A stretch of 64,000 nt of DNA from the NCBI GenBank assembly GCA_030425045.1, contig JAUHVL010000005.1, forward strand, positions 1-64,000, read 5' to 3'. The notes beneath the pieces were generated by a model that saw nothing but the letters and a program-made list of their open reading frames with translations, had not been told where the DNA came from and did no database searches. Below are positions 24,192 to 42,064 of this stretch, one piece after another. Numbering within the stretch: the first letter of the stretch is position 1; each line of letters begins with the position of its first letter. Made by a program: the position numbers and the translations under genes. The DNA comes from a bacterium (GTDB lineage: Bacteria; Bdellovibrionota; Bacteriovoracia; Bacteriovoracales; Bacteriovoracaceae).

Positions 24192-25112
24192 TTAATCAAT
24201 ACTTGTGGCCGTCACTGTTATCGTATCTTGATACTGTCCTGCTGCTTTGTTTGTGGGATCGCCAATTTCAAAGTTTAAATTAAAGTTCACACCATTTTCA
24301 GGGGTCACGCCACTAGCTGTTCCGAGCACTAAAGGTGCTCCAGGGCCAGGAAAACTTTGATTGCCACCATTTACTTCTAATTGATAATTCACAAACTGTG
24401 CTTGAGAAAGGTGCTTCATGGAGCCGCCATTAGTTGACGTTATCTCAACGGTATAACCAGCATTAGAGCGAACTTTTAAGTCAACGGCTTGGCTTTCTCC
24501 TTGATCAAGGTTTCCAAAGTCCATTACATAAGATGTCGCATTTTTATCAAAGCTTCCTCCAGGATTAACCAAAGAAATATCAATTTCAGGAGGAATATTG
24601 ACAGTTATACTGAAAGTATCTGTTTCACTTAATGTGGAAGAAAACACACCTGTAGCTGTTGCTGTAATATTATCGAGATAACTTCCTTTTGCTAAAAAAG
24701 TTCTTCCATCGTTGGGAACGGGTAACCTAGCTTCAAAAGTAGTATTAATCGTACTTTGATTATTTTGAAAAAAGAAAATAAAAATATTTTCATCAAAACT
24801 AGAGTAATCTGCAATTGTTTTAAGTTGTGTATTTGTCGTGCTGTTACGAAAGATATTATACTCGAGATAATCTGAGCCTTTAAACATTCTTCGGTTATAG
24901 TTTCCTGCCAAACCTTGGGAAAAACCGACTCTAAAGTATCGGCATTGATTATTACGTCGACCTCTTCTAAGTGAGATATTTCCTGTTACCACCTGTGAAT
25001 TTCCATCCCAGGTAAAATTGATATCATCGACATTAAGAGTGAGACGACAATTAGTTTGGGCAAATAATTCAGCAGAGGCAAAAAGTACAAAAAGTAGAAT
25101 TACTGTTTTCAT
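24192..25112 (-). CDS. fimbrial tip/adhesin subunit with spore-coat-U-like domain
   Basis: 306 residues with a signal peptide (cleavage after LFA). The N-terminal part (20-180) is a Cys-paired beta domain (TNCRLTLNV, NNQCRYF), the likely adhesin or lectin part. The C-terminal 120 residues resemble a spore-coat-U (Csu-type) pilin domain that ends in an assembly strand, QYQDTITVTAT. This two-domain layout fits the tip subunit of archaic chaperone-usher fimbriae. Its ATG overlaps the usher stop by 4 bp. Ends exactly at element A. Confidence 0.78.
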   Translation of the reverse strand: MKTVILLFVLFASAELFAQTNCRLTLNVDDINFTWDGNSQVVTGNISLRRGRRNNQCRYFRVGFSQGLAGNYNRRMFKGSDYLEYNIFRNSTTNTQLKTIADYSSFDENIFIFFFQNNQSTINTTFEARLPVPNDGRTFLAKGSYLDNITATATGVFSSTLSETDTFSITVNIPPEIDISLVNPGGSFDKNATSYVMDFGNLDQGESQAVDLKVRSNAGYTVEITSTNGGSMKHLSQAQFVNYQLEVNGGNQSFPGPGAPLVLGTASGVTPENGVNFNLNFEIGDPTNKAAGQYQDTITVTATSID

Positions 25113-27538
25113 TTATTCTCCCAGAAGATAAATCCTTCACCTTCACTTGTCACGTTGATCACACCAAGGTTTTGCTCATTAACGATTACGTTATATTCTC
25201 CAAGTTCTATGGATTCAATGAGAAAACGTCCTTTTCGATTTGTAAAAAATGGAATTTTCACACTACCCTCTTTACTTGATTGGAGATGGCCTACCACTAA
25301 AGACATGGCGCCTTTTTCGTTATAAAGTTTTCCAACAACGGCACGATTTAATTTGGCGGTAAGATCTAAAAGGACACCTCCTCTAAAAGGCGCCATTAAA
25401 ACATACTCTGGTTTTGGTGAGTCAACACCGATAGGTACATTTCGCGTATCAATTTTAACAGGATAAAAACGATAGGCTTGTGCATGAGGTATGATGGCGG
25501 AGCCAAAAGGTGACGTTGAAGCCGTATAGTTTTCATCATTTCTATTGATAAAAAGTGGAACATCTTTTAACGCTTCTTTTGTATCGATCATAATAAATGA
25601 TTCACTAATAGGTCTTGAAACACTCCAGTGATCTCCAACAAAGGCAAGCGCTGTATGAAAATTCAAGTTAGTATTATTTTGTTCATTTGATCTCGACCCA
25701 TTATTGATTTCGTGACCTAAAGCAGCTGTGTACCATTGATCAAACCTCTCAACATCAAATTCATAACGTTGCTTTTTGGGAGCGTTAACAATATTGGCCC
25801 GTCCATTCCAACTTCCAGGGCGAGATCGTCCATTATAGGCCCAGTTCAAACTACTCTCCTTTGGAATGGAGTTGTAGTTCGCCGTTACAAACTGACCTCT
25901 TTCTGGAAGAGAATAATTTAACGTGAAGATTACCTGATGTTCATCTTCTCCACCTTTAAACTTTGAATAACTATACTGAGTTGAAACCTGATAGTTCCTT
26001 GAAATTAAAGCACTAAAGCCTGAATTGATATTATAAAACGAGCTAATATTGGGATTACTAAGATAGCGATACCGCGCACCTAATCTAATATTAATATTAT
26101 CGGAGATAAATTGACCATAAGTCAGTTCTGGTGAGACCGTCGCATACTGAGTGAACGTAGTATTTCCAATTCCTGTAAATCGAGGAGACAAATACTCTAA
26201 AGAAAGCTGCACGTTTTTTAATCTTCTTTGATTGCTATAATCGGTAAACCGATGAGATAGTTTTCCCGCAAAGCCATGACCTGATTCACCATTTGTACCA
26301 GTAAAAAGTTGAGACCTTGAAAGATTTAACTCTGTTAGCCCTATCGCATTTTGCAGCCGTCCGACGAGTCCTGTGACATTTTGTTGTCTGGTTCCATTAA
26401 TATTAAATCCAATATTGGAAAATTCTGTTGCTCCCCATATATGATTGGCGAGATAAAAAAATCGCTTATCTTCTTCGTTATATTTGATGAGGTTATTATC
26501 TTCGCGTGATGTTTTTCCAAGAGCATAAGAAAACTCATGAATATCTTTTTTGATGAGGGAATAACTAGTAAACCTTTCAAACTCAATCCTCTCCTCTCGC
26601 CCTCGGCCATCTAAAATTTCTAAGGTCACATTGTTTAGACCTTCATTGAGCGGGAGCTCATCAATAAGGTGTCTACCCGCAGGAAGTTTAATGGTTCTTA
26701 TCAAAATGGAGTTCACATAAATTTTTACCGTTGAAGGACTCTCTAAATAGATCTCTCTGTTGGCCGTAGGATTAAATAATCGGTAGGGATTTAGACTAAA
26801 ATCAGAGCTTACCATTAACCCTCCTGCGGGGATGAAGCTTTGATAAAGTTCTGTATTATATTTTAAATCTCCAAGCTGATATCGAATGAGTCTTTTTGGA
26901 TCATCAAAGGATAACCTCATATCTTGTCTTGAAAACTTACGTTGCTGATCGTTTTGGTAGGTAGACTGAAGGTAAAAAGACCATTTCTTATAATTAATAT
27001 TATAATTTTGATCACCAGTATAAAATGAGTTTTCTAAATCTCCTGTTTTCTTTTGATAATAATTAAAGAAATTTACGAAACCAGAAAAGCCACTTGGCAT
27101 GATCGCATCTTTGGCCCATTCGGGACGCTCATTAAAAGCAAGGTTTGTTTCTTTTACTTTAAGTATTTTATTATCGATATCTAATTTCAAAACAAGGCTC
27201 TGAACATCGTATTCTAAAATCACGCCACTACCATCGAGTACGTTTGTATTTAAAAAAAGAGAATCTTTTTCAAAAATTTTAGTCGATACTTTTTTATCGA
27301 TGATTGGAACAAGGATTTTCTGTAGCCCTTCTTTTTCAAACTCAGAAACACTATCAGTATTTATAATTTTTACTTTTAGATCACCAAGGTAGTTTCCACT
27401 ATTAATTACAGGAAGAGAGACCAAACTGGTCGTTGTCTTTTTAAAAACCTGCTTAAAAAGGTCTTCTTGTGCTTGAACAGAACACAACATCATCAAGACA
27501 AAAAGAGTAAATATATTTTTACTTTGAGATTTCAACAA
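25109..27538 (-). CDS. outer-membrane fimbrial usher
   Basis: 809 residues. Signal peptide, a short N-terminal domain that binds chaperone-subunit complexes (about 30-150), the 24-strand beta barrel with the plug in the middle (GLMVSSDF..., then GRHLIDELP and GLNNVTLEILDGRGREE, written as motif ends), and C-terminal periplasmic domains (GAMSLVVGHLQ, GRFLIESI). This is the archaic/sigma-class pattern that secretes Csu-like fimbriae. It overlaps the chaperone gene by 20 bp and the tip gene by 4 bp, a coupled operon. Confidence 0.92.
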   Translation of the reverse strand: MLKSQSKNIFTLFVLMMLCSVQAQEDLFKQVFKKTTTSLVSLPVINSGNYLGDLKVKIINTDSVSEFEKEGLQKILVPIIDKKVSTKIFEKDSLFLNTNVLDGSGVILEYDVQSLVLKLDIDNKILKVKETNLAFNERPEWAKDAIMPSGFSGFVNFFNYYQKKTGDLENSFYTGDQNYNINYKKWSFYLQSTYQNDQQRKFSRQDMRLSFDDPKRLIRYQLGDLKYNTELYQSFIPAGGLMVSSDFSLNPYRLFNPTANREIYLESPSTVKIYVNSILIRTIKLPAGRHLIDELPLNEGLNNVTLEILDGRGREERIEFERFTSYSLIKKDIHEFSYALGKTSREDNNLIKYNEEDKRFFYLANHIWGATEFSNIGFNINGTRQQNVTGLVGRLQNAIGLTELNLSRSQLFTGTNGESGHGFAGKLSHRFTDYSNQRRLKNVQLSLEYLSPRFTGIGNTTFTQYATVSPELTYGQFISDNINIRLGARYRYLSNPNISSFYNINSGFSALISRNYQVSTQYSYSKFKGGEDEHQVIFTLNYSLPERGQFVTANYNSIPKESSLNWAYNGRSRPGSWNGRANIVNAPKKQRYEFDVERFDQWYTAALGHEINNGSRSNEQNNTNLNFHTALAFVGDHWSVSRPISESFIMIDTKEALKDVPLFINRNDENYTASTSPFGSAIIPHAQAYRFYPVKIDTRNVPIGVDSPKPEYVLMAPFRGGVLLDLTAKLNRAVVGKLYNEKGAMSLVVGHLQSSKEGSVKIPFFTNRKGRFLIESIELGEYNVIVNEQNLGVINVTSEGEGFIFWENK

Positions 27539-28238
27539 GTCTTAAACTTACCTTTCTTTTTCCACGTAAGGACTTAGGTGTTTTAATCCGAAAGTTTCTC
27601 ACTTTCCCGGCCAGAAGGTTTTCACCAAACATTCCTTTAAGCGCCTTTTTCTCTAATAAAACTTTATTACCAGCAGAATTTAATTCGACATGATGTTTAT
27701 TGAGAATATGGTGAAGCGCTCCTTTGTTTTTTACTTTGACAACAAAGCTTTCGGCATCTAAATCGACAGAGCTTGTGAGAAGCTCAAGTTCGCTCTCCCC
27801 TTTTACGGGAGACACATAAACCGCTGCCACATATTTTAAAAGGATCTTGATATTGGTTCTTTTTTTCTTATCTTGATTGGCCACTTCAATAGGTAATTGC
27901 TCTGCAATCAATCGATAGGCCTTTTCAACGGAAATATTTTTGTCTCCAAGATAAGTCACTTTGACTGTTCTTTTTTGTCCGGCCTTAATAATCATCTGAT
28001 CCGGAAAAATAATAAACTGATCTTCAACTTCGGGATGCCTTTCTTTTCCCCACTCATCCATATTTCTTTGCGCGATCGTTAACTCAACAGCAATAGGAGA
28101 AGATGATTTGTTTTGAACATTAAAAAGCATATGCTGCTCACCATCTCCAGGAGTTAAGCTCTGGCTCATGGGTGAAAGCTTAAAAGCATAGGAGTTAAAA
28201 AAGAATAAAATAAGTAGTAGCGAAGAAATCCATTTCAT
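27519..28238 (-). CDS. periplasmic fimbrial chaperone
   Basis: 239 residues, signal peptide (MKWISSLLLILFFFNSYA) then a two-domain PapD-like immunoglobulin fold. The G1-strand pattern KAYRLIAEQLP with alternating hydrophobics is present, and the IKAGQKRTVKVTY loop precedes it. It caps subunits until they meet the usher. The long A1 stretch and lack of a Cys pair fit the archaic class. ATG preceded by AAGGATATTCG. Its stop lies 20 bp inside the usher gene. Confidence 0.9.
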   Translation of the reverse strand: MKWISSLLLILFFFNSYAFKLSPMSQSLTPGDGEQHMLFNVQNKSSSPIAVELTIAQRNMDEWGKERHPEVEDQFIIFPDQMIIKAGQKRTVKVTYLGDKNISVEKAYRLIAEQLPIEVANQDKKKRTNIKILLKYVAAVYVSPVKGESELELLTSSVDLDAESFVVKVKNKGALHHILNKHHVELNSAGNKVLLEKKALKGMFGENLLAGKVRNFRIKTPKSLRGKRKVSLRLVEISK

Positions 28239-28312
28239 CGAATATCCTTAAGATAAGTTGTCTTCTTCTATTGTAGTAAACTACTGAAAATAGCTGTAGA
28301 GGGAGGATTTTA

Positions 28313-28570
28313 CTAGTTGATCATGATGGTGATCACACGTACTTTTCCACGCTTGGTTTTTTTAGAATTTCTAAAAATTTTATAGCGATTTTTAGGAATA
28401 TTTGTTTTGAAACTAGCACCTAAATTCAAACGATTAGGAAAACTAAAAACAGGCGCGAAGCTGAACGTTGGAAAAACTCTTCCTGCTAGTATCAGATCTC
28501 CCTGATCAGCATTTAATTTCGGTCCTTGAAAGATAAGCAGGGTAAAAATGAAAAATACCCGACATAACAT
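28313..28570 (-). CDS. 85-residue mini fimbrial-like exported protein
   Basis: Between the major pilin and chaperone genes. It has an N-terminal leader (about 1-21) and then GDLILAGRV, which matches the GNLLLSGTV start of the mature pilin 65 bp upstream, and ends with a beta strand RVITIMIN. The rest is much shorter than a pilin, basic, and lacks the immunoglobulin-like middle. It could be an anchor, terminator or worn pilin. The ATG is inside a strong hairpin (28553-28590) and has no Shine-Dalgarno, so translation is probably low. Unknown otherwise. Confidence 0.6.
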   Translation of the reverse strand: MLCRVFFIFTLLIFQGPKLNADQGDLILAGRVFPTFSFAPVFSFPNRLNLGASFKTNIPKNRYKIFRNSKKTKRGKVRVITIMIN

Positions 28571-28590
28571 AGTGTTATTATCGGGTATTT
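28553..28590 (-). terminator. hairpin after the pilin gene, over the next start codon
   Basis: On the minus strand: AAATACCCGA (28590-28581) pairs with TCGGGTATTT (28562-28553), and inside it ATAACA pairs with TGTTAT around a 3-base loop. T-rich sequence follows, so it looks like an intrinsic terminator or attenuator. The start codon of the 85-residue gene (28568-28570) is in the loop region. This could let pilin be made in excess of the chaperone and usher. Confidence 0.75.
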
Positions 28591-28634
28591 CTCAATTATT
28601 CTTTAGTACTTTTTTAAGTAGTTGATTTTACGAA

Positions 28635-29105
28635 TTAGATAGCAGAGATCGTAAACGTTACTGTGTCAGTATACGTACCTTCGACCATTTCTGCTGCCGC
28701 TTTTCCAGTATAAGCAATATCAACATCACTATCGTAATCATAAACACCGGCCGTACTTTGTGTCTTAACTGTCTGATCAGTCGTAGTTAAAGAAACCATA
28801 GAACCACCATCATAGCTAATTTGATAAGCTAATTGGTCAAGTGATCCGTTCTTTAAAAGAGATCCGTTAGTAGACTTGGCCGAAATTGTATAACCCGTAT
28901 TTGAGTTAGAAACTTCATTAACAGTTGCTACTTTTAATGCTGTTGGTGATGCTGAAAGGTCTAGGTTAGAAGCACCAGCTTCAGCTGTAACAACAATAGC
29001 GAGCTCTTCAGCAACAGTTCCAGAAAGAAGTAGGTTTCCAGTTGTAGCAGCGTGAGCAGTTAAGGTTCCTAAAATGATTCCTGCAGTTGCAATTTTCTTT
29101 AACAT
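28635..29105 (-). CDS. major fimbrial pilin subunit
   Basis: 156 residues from the ATG at 29105, six bases after GGAGG; the in-frame ATG at 29111 touches that site and is unlikely. Signal peptide ends at AHA, then GNLLLSGTV opens the mature pilin. Small-residue and Thr/Ser-rich beta protein, no cysteine, with a C-terminal strand YTDTVTFTISAI that resembles the tip protein's last strand, as expected for subunits joined by donor-strand exchange. First gene of the fimbrial operon, divergent from msrA with a 270-bp spacer. Confidence 0.85.
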   Translation of the reverse strand: MLKKIATAGIILGTLTAHAATTGNLLLSGTVAEELAIVVTAEAGASNLDLSASPTALKVATVNEVSNSNTGYTISAKSTNGSLLKNGSLDQLAYQISYDGGSMVSLTTTDQTVKTQSTAGVYDYDSDVDIAYTGKAAAEMVEGTYTDTVTFTISAI

Positions 29106-29373
29106 ATTCATCCTCCCCGATGATATTTCTTATGATTCGGTAACGATTCAAAGTCACTATATTACAAAGAAGAGTTCTGTGGCAGATAGCTGGTAATAAT
29201 TACCCTAGGTGTTTACAAAGTCTGCAAACAGGCACTTCCTTGTAGTGATAATTACAATATCGGTGCCAATCAGCTTTCATTTAACATATGGATTTTACAT
29301 GGGAAACTTTGTCCAGTATTAGACCAGTGCAAAGCTAATTGACTCCTGTACAAAACATTTTCATAATGGGCCC
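29106..29373. promoter_or_regulatory. divergent intergenic region between pilin operon and msrA
   Basis: 268 bp that must hold the promoters of both operons. TAATAT (minus strand, about 29160) could be a -10 for the pilin gene, but no good -35 is 17 bases before it. I tested a sigma-54 -24/-12 pair and found the GG-GC spacing wrong. Nothing more can be assigned. Confidence 0.4.
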
Positions 29374-35084: not shown

Positions 35085-35204
35085 CTAGTCTTGATCGAGA
35101 TAAGTGATACTCGAAATCTCGTCTCGAAACTCACCTTCAGATATCCAGATATTTCCCTGATCACATTCGAGATCATATCGATAACTATAACAACCCGTTC
35201 CTCA
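35085..35204 (-). other. in-frame continuation of the C1 protease past a TGA
   Basis: After the TGA at 35204-35202 the same frame stays open for 38 codons to a TAG at 35087-35085. It reads GTGCYSYRYDLEC..., which is what follows NSW in papain-like proteases, so the TGA replaces the expected Trp of NSWG (TGG to TGA). Two cysteines in this tail could form a disulfide. This is the original end of the protein, lost by a nonsense change or reached by read-through. Confidence 0.75.
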
Positions 35205-36518
35205 TGAATTTCTAATCATAAACTCACAACGACTTCTCTTCTCGTTCCATCTTCTCCCAACAACCGAACTCACATGATTTCCACCTTCACCAGATTGTTT
35301 GATAAAACTTGTGTGATAAGACGCTGAAAAAATCTGTTCATCATCCATAAGTTGATGGGCCAAGTCCAATCGACTAGAGGCTCGACTAAAAATTCCAAGT
35401 CCTGCAATTTCCCCTTCAAGAAAAATGGGGTTTTCACAACTGGCATTATTCATATTGGCCACAATCGAGCTGCGGCTACTATCGAGCACGACCTCAACTA
35501 TTTCATCTAAATTAGCGTGGGGAAAAAATTCCTTAAAAGTAGATAGGTTGCTACAAATCATCGATCTAGAAAAATGGTCTCTCAAGGAGTCAGCATCATC
35601 AAGAGATTCGATATAAGTTCTCACCTCGGGAGGAACTAGAATTCTATCTAACAAACTTGGATTTCTATTTAATCTTCTTTCGATACTTTGATAACTTGTG
35701 ACTCTTATAGGACTTTCTTCGGGATCACCTAGTCCTTCAACCACTAAGTCACGATAAAACTCATAAAGTGCCAACGTTTCCCAAAACTCATCTATAGCAT
35801 CTTCTAATTCTGTCATTCGAGTATAGAGGTTAACATCACCAGCAAGTGTTCCCGCCATCTGATCTTCTGAACAAAAGCCTTGCTGAAGACCTTGCCTTAA
35901 AGCAATATGATCAAAACCACCATCATGTTCTGACTCGCCTCCTCCTGGATCAAAAATTCTTTCCATAAAAATACGATTGTATTTAATAGCAAGATCGACA
36001 GGAGAAATATTTTGTCCAGTATGAAAACTTGCAATATCAGCTGCTGTAAACGAATAACACCAACCAATGGATCCCTGACTTCGAATGGGAGGTAAACGAT
36101 CTCTAATGTCTACTGAACCACACCGACCTCTTGCTTGCTCAAGATGAGGTCTCGCTCTTCTCTCTATGGCCTCGACTCTTTGTCCCGCTCTCTCAGCGGC
36201 AGCAAGTAAGCCCTCGAGGTCCATATTTCTGTAATTCATAAAATCATCGTGAAGACGAGTGTACTCTTGCATATTGCCACGTTGTCTTAAATTGCGAAGT
36301 CCGTTTGGACCAAGGCCAAAGTTTATGGGATTAAAGCCACATTGTTCAAAACTTAATTCTAGATTATCAAGATCCCAATTTGCTTCTCCATGCTCAACTA
36401 GCTCTCTAATGACTTCGATATTTCGATTAAAAGCAAAGCGATCACAGGGGATGAGAATATTAAACTCCTGAGCTTCTGTACTCAAAAGAAAGATGAAAAA
36501 AAGAAGATGGAGTTTCAT
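35202..36518 (-). CDS. secreted papain-like (C1A) cysteine protease, stopped by TGA
   Basis: 438 residues with a signal peptide (to about 17). The catalytic domain starts near 130: DIRDRLPPIRSQGSIGWCYSF holds the oxyanion Gln and nucleophile Cys (written here as motif parts DIRDRLPPIRS and QGSIGWCYSF), His in GGNHVSSVVG near 415, and Asn in MIRNS at the very end. The stop replaces the Trp of NSWG, so all three catalytic residues precede the stop but the C-terminal strand is lost. A helical pro-region lies ahead. Three bp after the zinc-ribbon gene in the same operon. Confidence 0.82.
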   Translation of the reverse strand: MKLHLLFFIFLLSTEAQEFNILIPCDRFAFNRNIEVIRELVEHGEANWDLDNLELSFEQCGFNPINFGLGPNGLRNLRQRGNMQEYTRLHDDFMNYRNMDLEGLLAAAERAGQRVEAIERRARPHLEQARGRCGSVDIRDRLPPIRSQGSIGWCYSFTAADIASFHTGQNISPVDLAIKYNRIFMERIFDPGGGESEHDGGFDHIALRQGLQQGFCSEDQMAGTLAGDVNLYTRMTELEDAIDEFWETLALYEFYRDLVVEGLGDPEESPIRVTSYQSIERRLNRNPSLLDRILVPPEVRTYIESLDDADSLRDHFSRSMICSNLSTFKEFFPHANLDEIVEVVLDSSRSSIVANMNNASCENPIFLEGEIAGLGIFSRASSRLDLAHQLMDDEQIFSASYHTSFIKQSGEGGNHVSSVVGRRWNEKRSRCEFMIRNS

Positions 36519-40437: not shown

Positions 40438-41160
40438 ATGGTCAATTTAAATAAAAAAATAAATCTCCACAATTTAGTTGGAATACATAATAAAGATGAT
40501 ATTCACTCTCTTCTTATAACCTGTGCCAATGAAAAAAATGATCTTCTCTTTTGGCAGCAAATTGAAAACTCAAGAGAACGATTTGTCGGATCTATTTTAG
40601 AAATTGATAAAGGCTTAGAACAGATTGTCTTTAAGCTAAAAGATGGTGTTCCAAAACTCTGTGAACAAGCACCTCTTTATATTTATGAAGAAAAGAAGGG
40701 CTTTGTTACCAAGTCAGATTTATTCTTTATGAAAGATAATACACTACTTATCGGCACTCCTGATGAAATGAAATTAACGGAACTGAGAAAACATACTCGT
40801 TTTGATTTAACAGATAAAGAAAATAGGCTCGTTTATCATTCTAAAAAAATTGGCTTAGGTGAAAAAGTAAAACACTTCACATCAAGAATTAATGATGTTT
40901 CCCAGTGGGGAATGTCTCTCGAAATTCATCAGCACCAAAAAGGTCGATACAATATTGGAGATGAATTACAGATAAAAGAGATTGCCAATATCCCCATTAG
41001 CGACCTCAAAGGGAAGGTACTTTACTCATGTCCCCACTATAATCACCCCGAGGGAAAAAATGTTTTAAAAGCGGGAATTGTTTTTAATAGAATGATTGAT
41101 AAAGAATTAATTAAAGATATTTTTCTGAATAAAATAAATGATGACTTATTAGCTGCTTAA
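40438..41160 (+). CDS. PilZ-domain protein, tandem copy 1
   Basis: 240 residues. The PilZ motifs are RKHTRFDL (RxxxR, about residue 120) and NDVSQWGMSL (D/NxSxxG, about 156). The N-terminal 115 residues are a beta-rich partner domain without motif. c-di-GMP binding is the likely role. ATG follows AGAGGGGCAT. The neighbour at 41342 is a close paralogue across its whole length, so this is a tandem duplication. A terminator at 41188-41228 separates them, so each is its own unit. Confidence 0.88.
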   Translation: MVNLNKKINLHNLVGIHNKDDIHSLLITCANEKNDLLFWQQIENSRERFVGSILEIDKGLEQIVFKLKDGVPKLCEQAPLYIYEEKKGFVTKSDLFFMKDNTLLIGTPDEMKLTELRKHTRFDLTDKENRLVYHSKKIGLGEKVKHFTSRINDVSQWGMSLEIHQHQKGRYNIGDELQIKEIANIPISDLKGKVLYSCPHYNHPEGKNVLKAGIVFNRMIDKELIKDIFLNKINDDLLAA

Positions 41161-41187
41161 GAGAAGCAAACTATAATTACACTTTGT

Positions 41188-41228
41188 CATAAATCCTAGG
41201 TCTGATGCCTAGGATTTATGGCGTTTTT
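41188..41228 (+). terminator. strong terminator between the PilZ paralogues
   Basis: CATAAATCCTAGG (41188-41200), loop TCTGATG, CCTAGGATTTATG (41208-41220): a perfect 13-bp stem followed by GCGTTTTT. Ends the first PilZ transcript. Confidence 0.9.
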
Positions 41229-41341
41229 ACAAGTCCAGCTTTCACTGTCACCTCGTAATTTAAGGTACTTAAAGCAATTTTATAGAAATATAAGGATTTA
41301 GCTTAGTATAAGGTATCTTAATAATAATGGGGGCGAGAGCC

Positions 41342-42064
41342 ATGGTTGATTTAAAAAAGAAGATAAACCTACATAACCTTGTGGGTGTAAATAAGAAAGA
41401 TGATATTCACTCCATCCTGATTTCATGTGCAAAAGAAAAGCAGCAAATTTTATTTTGGCAGCTTCACAATATGGAGAGAAATAAATTTACGGCCAGTATT
41501 ACTGAAATCGATAAAGGCCTCGAGCAAGTCATATTTAAGATTAATGGGGTGACCCCTACTTTAGATGAACAACTCGCGCTTTTTATGTATGAAGAAAAGA
41601 AGGGCTTTGTAAGTAAGTCTGATCTCTTTTTCTTAAAAAACGATACGCTATTAATTGGAACACCTGATGAGATCAAACTGACTGAGCTGAGAAAGCACAC
41701 TCGTTTTGATCTCTCACATATAAAAAATAGACTCGTCTACCATTCCAAGAAGATGGGTCTGGGAGAGAAGGTGAAGCATTTCACATCTAGAATAAGTGAT
41801 GTATCTCAATGGGGGATGTCTTTAGAGATTCATCAACATCAAATCGGTCGTTATGCTATGGGGGACGAGCTTGCTATTAAAGAAATTGCGAGTATTCCCA
41901 TGGGGGATCTAAAAGGAACGATCGTTTACTCTAGCCCTTTTTATAATCACCCTGAGGGGAAAAACATTATAAAAGCGGGTATTGTCTTTGACAGAATGGT
42001 TGATAAAGAACTTATTAAAGACATCTTTCTCAACCAAGGTAGCGATGATCTCATCGCAGCTTAG
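41342..42064 (+). CDS. PilZ-domain protein, tandem copy 2
   Basis: 240 residues from the ATG at 41342 (an in-frame ATG at 41327 is preceded by no ribosome site, whereas GGGGGCGAGAG sits ahead of the chosen one). RKHTRFDLS and SDVSQWGMSL repeat the c-di-GMP motif, and most of the sequence matches copy 1. Differences cluster in the N-terminal partner domain, so the paralogues may differ in partner or ligand affinity. The spacer is 84 bp to mipA. Confidence 0.88.
   Translation: MVDLKKKINLHNLVGVNKKDDIHSILISCAKEKQQILFWQLHNMERNKFTASITEIDKGLEQVIFKINGVTPTLDEQLALFMYEEKKGFVSKSDLFFLKNDTLLIGTPDEIKLTELRKHTRFDLSHIKNRLVYHSKKMGLGEKVKHFTSRISDVSQWGMSLEIHQHQIGRYAMGDELAIKEIASIPMGDLKGTIVYSSPFYNHPEGKNIIKAGIVFDRMVDKELIKDIFLNQGSDDLIAA

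Follow-up and report, generated by a model that had tools for sequence, protein, structure and literature searches.

A lone in-frame TGA in the NSWG motif of a papain-like protease gene, with a base error or unrepresentative allele as the favoured explanation

Papain-like peptidases (MEROPS C1, PF00112) carry Gln, Cys, His and Asn in this order, together with an NSWG-type motif and the papain fold. The tryptophan following the catalytic Asn is functionally relevant: Trp177 of papain takes part in substrate coordination and covers part of the active site, and in MOA, which has the Trp/Gln pair swapped, variants of this pair lose activity (10.1016/j.crstbi.2020.04.003). Two bacterial recoding systems, the prfB frameshift and selenocysteine insertion, place an in-frame UGA ahead of a conserved continuation. 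UGA is also the leakiest bacterial stop codon and in E. coli is most often misread as Trp (10.1038/s41467-024-48387-x); position 27-43 of tRNA-Trp, when unpaired, has been linked to this misreading (10.1093/nar/gkag327). A similar arrangement arises from nonsense mutations, in young pseudogenes and from consensus errors in draft assemblies.

The gene described here lies in a 64,000-nucleotide stretch of a Bacteriovoracaceae contig (hereafter the window) and shares features with each of these systems. It has the residue order, the NSWG-type motif and the predicted fold of the papain family, but differs in that its N-terminal region is long and an extended insert separates Cys from His; in several of its relatives, the Trp is replaced by Tyr, Phe, His, Glu or Thr. 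It resembles bacterial UGA recoding in that conserved sequence continues past an in-frame UGA, whereas the stop is unconserved, the continuation lies in the same frame, no tRNA-Sec exceeds the cut-off and the downstream RNA is not structured. With one in-frame stop in an otherwise intact gene, a conserved downstream sequence and no counterpart in relatives, it fits a nonsense mutation, a young pseudogene or a draft consensus error. The locus is organised as follows:

35205..36518, minus strand: 438 open codons of the papain-like (C1-type) protease gene, ahead of the stop
35202..35204, minus strand: in-frame TGA, where most relatives have the Trp of NSWG
35088..35201, minus strand: conserved C-terminal tail of the family, 38 codons after the TGA, GTGCYSYRYDLECDQGNIWISEGEFRDEISSITYLDQD
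35085..35087, minus strand: TAG, the family's usual end, closing the frame of the tail

The open reading frame (36518-35202, minus strand) encodes 438 amino acids, starting with a sequence that by eye resembles a signal peptide, MKLHLLFFIFLLSTEAQ, and ending in CEFMIRNS immediately before the TGA (context TCA TGA GGA). The first-pass annotation had reported Gln, Cys, His and Asn in papain order ahead of a stop after MIRNS, and a frame that stays open for another 38 codons to a TAG. Both the coordinates and the reading hold: Gln148, Cys154, His415 and Asn437 all precede the stop, and the frame continues up to the TAG at 35087-35085, through a tail that contains the peptide DEISSITYLDQD.

Elsewhere in the window, positions 24192-29111 look, from their translations only, like a chaperone-usher type pilus cluster, in which small subunit-like proteins flank the following two genes on both sides:

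25109-27538: usher-like gene of the pilus-type cluster, from its translation
27519-28238: chaperone-like gene of the pilus-type cluster, from its translation

At 40438-42064, two closely similar proteins of about 240 amino acids each are encoded in tandem, a recent duplication.

The protease belongs to a large family. Profile searches recovered members in 109 of 129 genomes from the host's taxonomic family, and the genome under study has five, namely the window gene and four paralogues (L021, L022, L023 and L024, on contigs C8, C64, C13 and C91 of G000), none of which contains such a premature stop. Across 25 relatives, the catalytic positions are nearly fixed (Q148, the oxyanion Gln, and C154 identical in 24 each, H415 in all 25, and N437 in 22, the other three having Asp). 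A wider contig search returned a single motif match and no close relative: a distantly related protein with TGG in a Bdellovibrionales metagenome-assembled genome (L034). The truncated form matches no Pfam family at E = 1, and reading the stop as Trp yields a Peptidase_C1 (PF00112) match around NSWG of 14.9 bits, below the cut-off of 20.7. Members of this family often score under that cut-off, which three relatives exceed (20.9, 21.7 and 23.1 bits). The AlphaFold model of the read-through protein has a mean pLDDT of 79.5, with core and tail above 90, and Foldseek aligns it with C1 enzymes in the PDB (e.g. 5wdk, 6a0n and 1u9w; E down to 6.5e-07); a search with the family profile likewise matches cathepsins, ficin and others. 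Given that the Pfam cut-off is missed, the predicted fold and the motif carry the assignment, and on this basis the protein is a divergent branch of the papain-like C1 peptidases.

The sequence behind the stop belongs to the protein. A profile made from the tails of 25 relatives, with this one left out, gives the tail 44.3 bits, and none of 989 scored shuffles exceeded 11.8. It retains G440, G455 and W458, three positions that hardly vary in the family, and the ratio of its identity to that of the block before it (0.73) falls within the range of other family members (0.51-0.85). Among 63 free extensions of open reading frames behind stops, collected from 480 kb, this tail is the longest and the most coding-like. 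In the structural model, it forms predicted strands at 456-460 and 470-475 with pLDDT values of about 94-97. Judged by its sequence, the tail is genuine protein sequence of the family. Nor does the gene carry further damage, as all nearly invariant positions are kept, including the three behind the stop.

The TGG that the first-pass annotation had expected at the interrupted codon is present in most relatives: the alignment column of the NSWG tryptophan comprises 58 rows, with 38 TGG codons, 17 other sense codons (Tyr, His, Phe, Glu or Thr, and never Cys), two gaps and one stop, that of the window gene. Apart from this TGA, no stop was found among the 56 aligned sites. The column therefore excludes that homologues all end at NS, a possibility that the same annotation had raised, since no relative does so; from the alignment, the position appears to tolerate other residues but no stop. 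Inner TGA or TAA codons were flagged in several profile matches, yet none of those inspected lies at NSWG; they were ordinary gene ends, upstream sequence or, in one case (G101), a fragment beside a contig end.

UGA is an ordinary stop codon in this genome. It terminates 153 of 813 coding-like open reading frames in 880 kb of sampled sequence, and cmoA and ybaK, which had already been cited as evidence against a changed code, both end in TGA. The prfB gene, encoding release factor 2 (RF2), is present with a classical +1 programmed frameshift site, GGAGGTCACTTTGA (GGAGG TCA CTT TGA; L105:1526-1545, G000:C75); this site also occurs in many relatives of the family. No match to tRNA-Sec (RF01852) exceeds the gathering score in the genome. 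A single tRNA-Trp turned up in the 880 kb (L156:8045-8120, G000:C34), with the anticodon CCA and intact A9 and G24; a G27-U43 wobble sits at the top of its anticodon stem, which is still paired.

The 880 kb sample was also scanned for lone in-frame stops ahead of conserved tails, and only two clear genes emerged: the protease and prfB itself. The latter is located on the same contig, outside the window, and contains an in-frame TAA (G000:C75:177175-177177; L105:2392-2394) directly after KKRAEQDEV, about 61 codons short of the normal end. All 28 aligned relatives read through this column, mostly with Glu. A TAG that had also been flagged in prfB belongs to the wrong frame ahead of the +1 frameshift, and the TAA is the true in-frame stop. 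Other in-frame extensions past stops in the sample, all but a few of them inspected singly, were mostly neighbouring genes with starts of their own. RF2 is normally essential. Since UGA serves as a stop genome-wide, no other gene passes the prfB cut-off and the 28 relatives are intact, a prfB broken in this way is not plausible as a working allele, and its TAA is probably an assembly error.

How, then, is the protease TGA to be explained? Reassignment of UGA to Trp or selenocysteine has nothing in its favour beyond the protease codon itself, and is excluded by the use of UGA as a stop, a prfB with its frameshift site, the lack of a tRNA-Sec above cut-off and a tRNA-Trp(CCA) with A9 and G24; we accord it practically no probability. 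A code with UGA as Trp is further at odds with the scan, which over 880 kb turned up a single in-frame TGA ahead of conserved sequence, and a selenoprotein with both the tRNA-Sec search and a column that is never Cys. Read-through, programmed or tolerated, would insert Trp or another residue part of the time and yield two forms, one short and inactive, the other long and active. The conserved tail, the known propensity of UGA to be misread as Trp and the G27-U43 wobble at the tRNA position linked to such misreading are consistent with this scenario. However, no relative has a stop at the column, the RNA after the TGA shows no excess of structure (z = +0.98, with 171 of 200 shuffles folding equally well or better), the 880 kb yielded no second UGA ahead of a conserved tail, and the tRNA-Trp keeps A9, G24 and a paired anticodon stem. 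With no conserved stop, no stimulatory structure and no second case, programmed read-through, which has only the general leakiness of UGA in its favour, is unlikely, and we rate read-through of either kind as improbable. The first-pass annotation had offered a single G-to-A change or programmed read-through as the event that splits the enzyme; the single-base change stands, while the read-through half does not agree with an unshared stop, the absence of excess structure and the lack of recurrence.

A single-base change could be real or could reside in the assembly only. We favour the latter, and consider it somewhat better than an even bet that the TGA entered the 91-contig draft assembly as a consensus error or as a minority or otherwise unrepresentative allele. 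A single nonsense base interrupts a gene that is otherwise intact and belongs to a large family of papain-like proteases. Nonsense that cannot be functional is present in the same assembly, on the same contig: the unworkable prfB stop indicates that the assembly carries wrong or unrepresentative bases, so the protease TGA would most simply be one more of them. If about 4% of random substitutions create a stop, we estimate a substitution error rate of about 5e-5 from the two clear stops in the 880 kb; this is ordinary for a draft, and a guess from two cases. An error in prfB would be no proof of an error in the protease, which looks dispensable given its four paralogues, and a real nonsense mutation would be tolerated there. 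Such a recent mutation is the main rival, a serious possibility that we nonetheless rate as the less likely one. The enzyme would then end at NS and the gene would be a very young pseudogene, with the paralogues compensating; the tail, still conserved, would date the change as young. Considering the role of Trp177 at the active site of papain and the high confidence of the last strands in the model, a form without the Trp beside the catalytic Asn, and without the closing strands of the fold, would probably be inactive. Against a real mutation speak the premature stop in prfB, which shows that non-functional nonsense bases occur here, and the absence of other clear nonsense or decay in the protease gene. 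A naturally shorter enzyme that works without a relic tail would agree with catalytic Cys, His and Asn residues that all precede the stop, but every examined relative continues, the tail keeps the conservation of the family and is predicted to lie within the folded domain; we give this option next to no credence. Finally, both stops could be real and linked: the TAA would truncate or deplete RF2, termination at UGA would weaken, and the protease UGA would be read as Trp often enough for activity, capturing an early stage of UGA capture. We regard this scenario as very improbable.

Under the favoured explanation of a base error or unrepresentative allele, the true gene would encode a normal, predicted exported papain-like protease of 477 residues. 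If so, the case is a reminder to look for nonsense in essential genes of an assembly, and to take it into account, before a lone in-frame stop in a draft genome is put down to recoding. Should sequencing reads instead confirm the stops in both prfB and the protease gene, this genome would offer a rare opportunity to study weakened termination at UGA.
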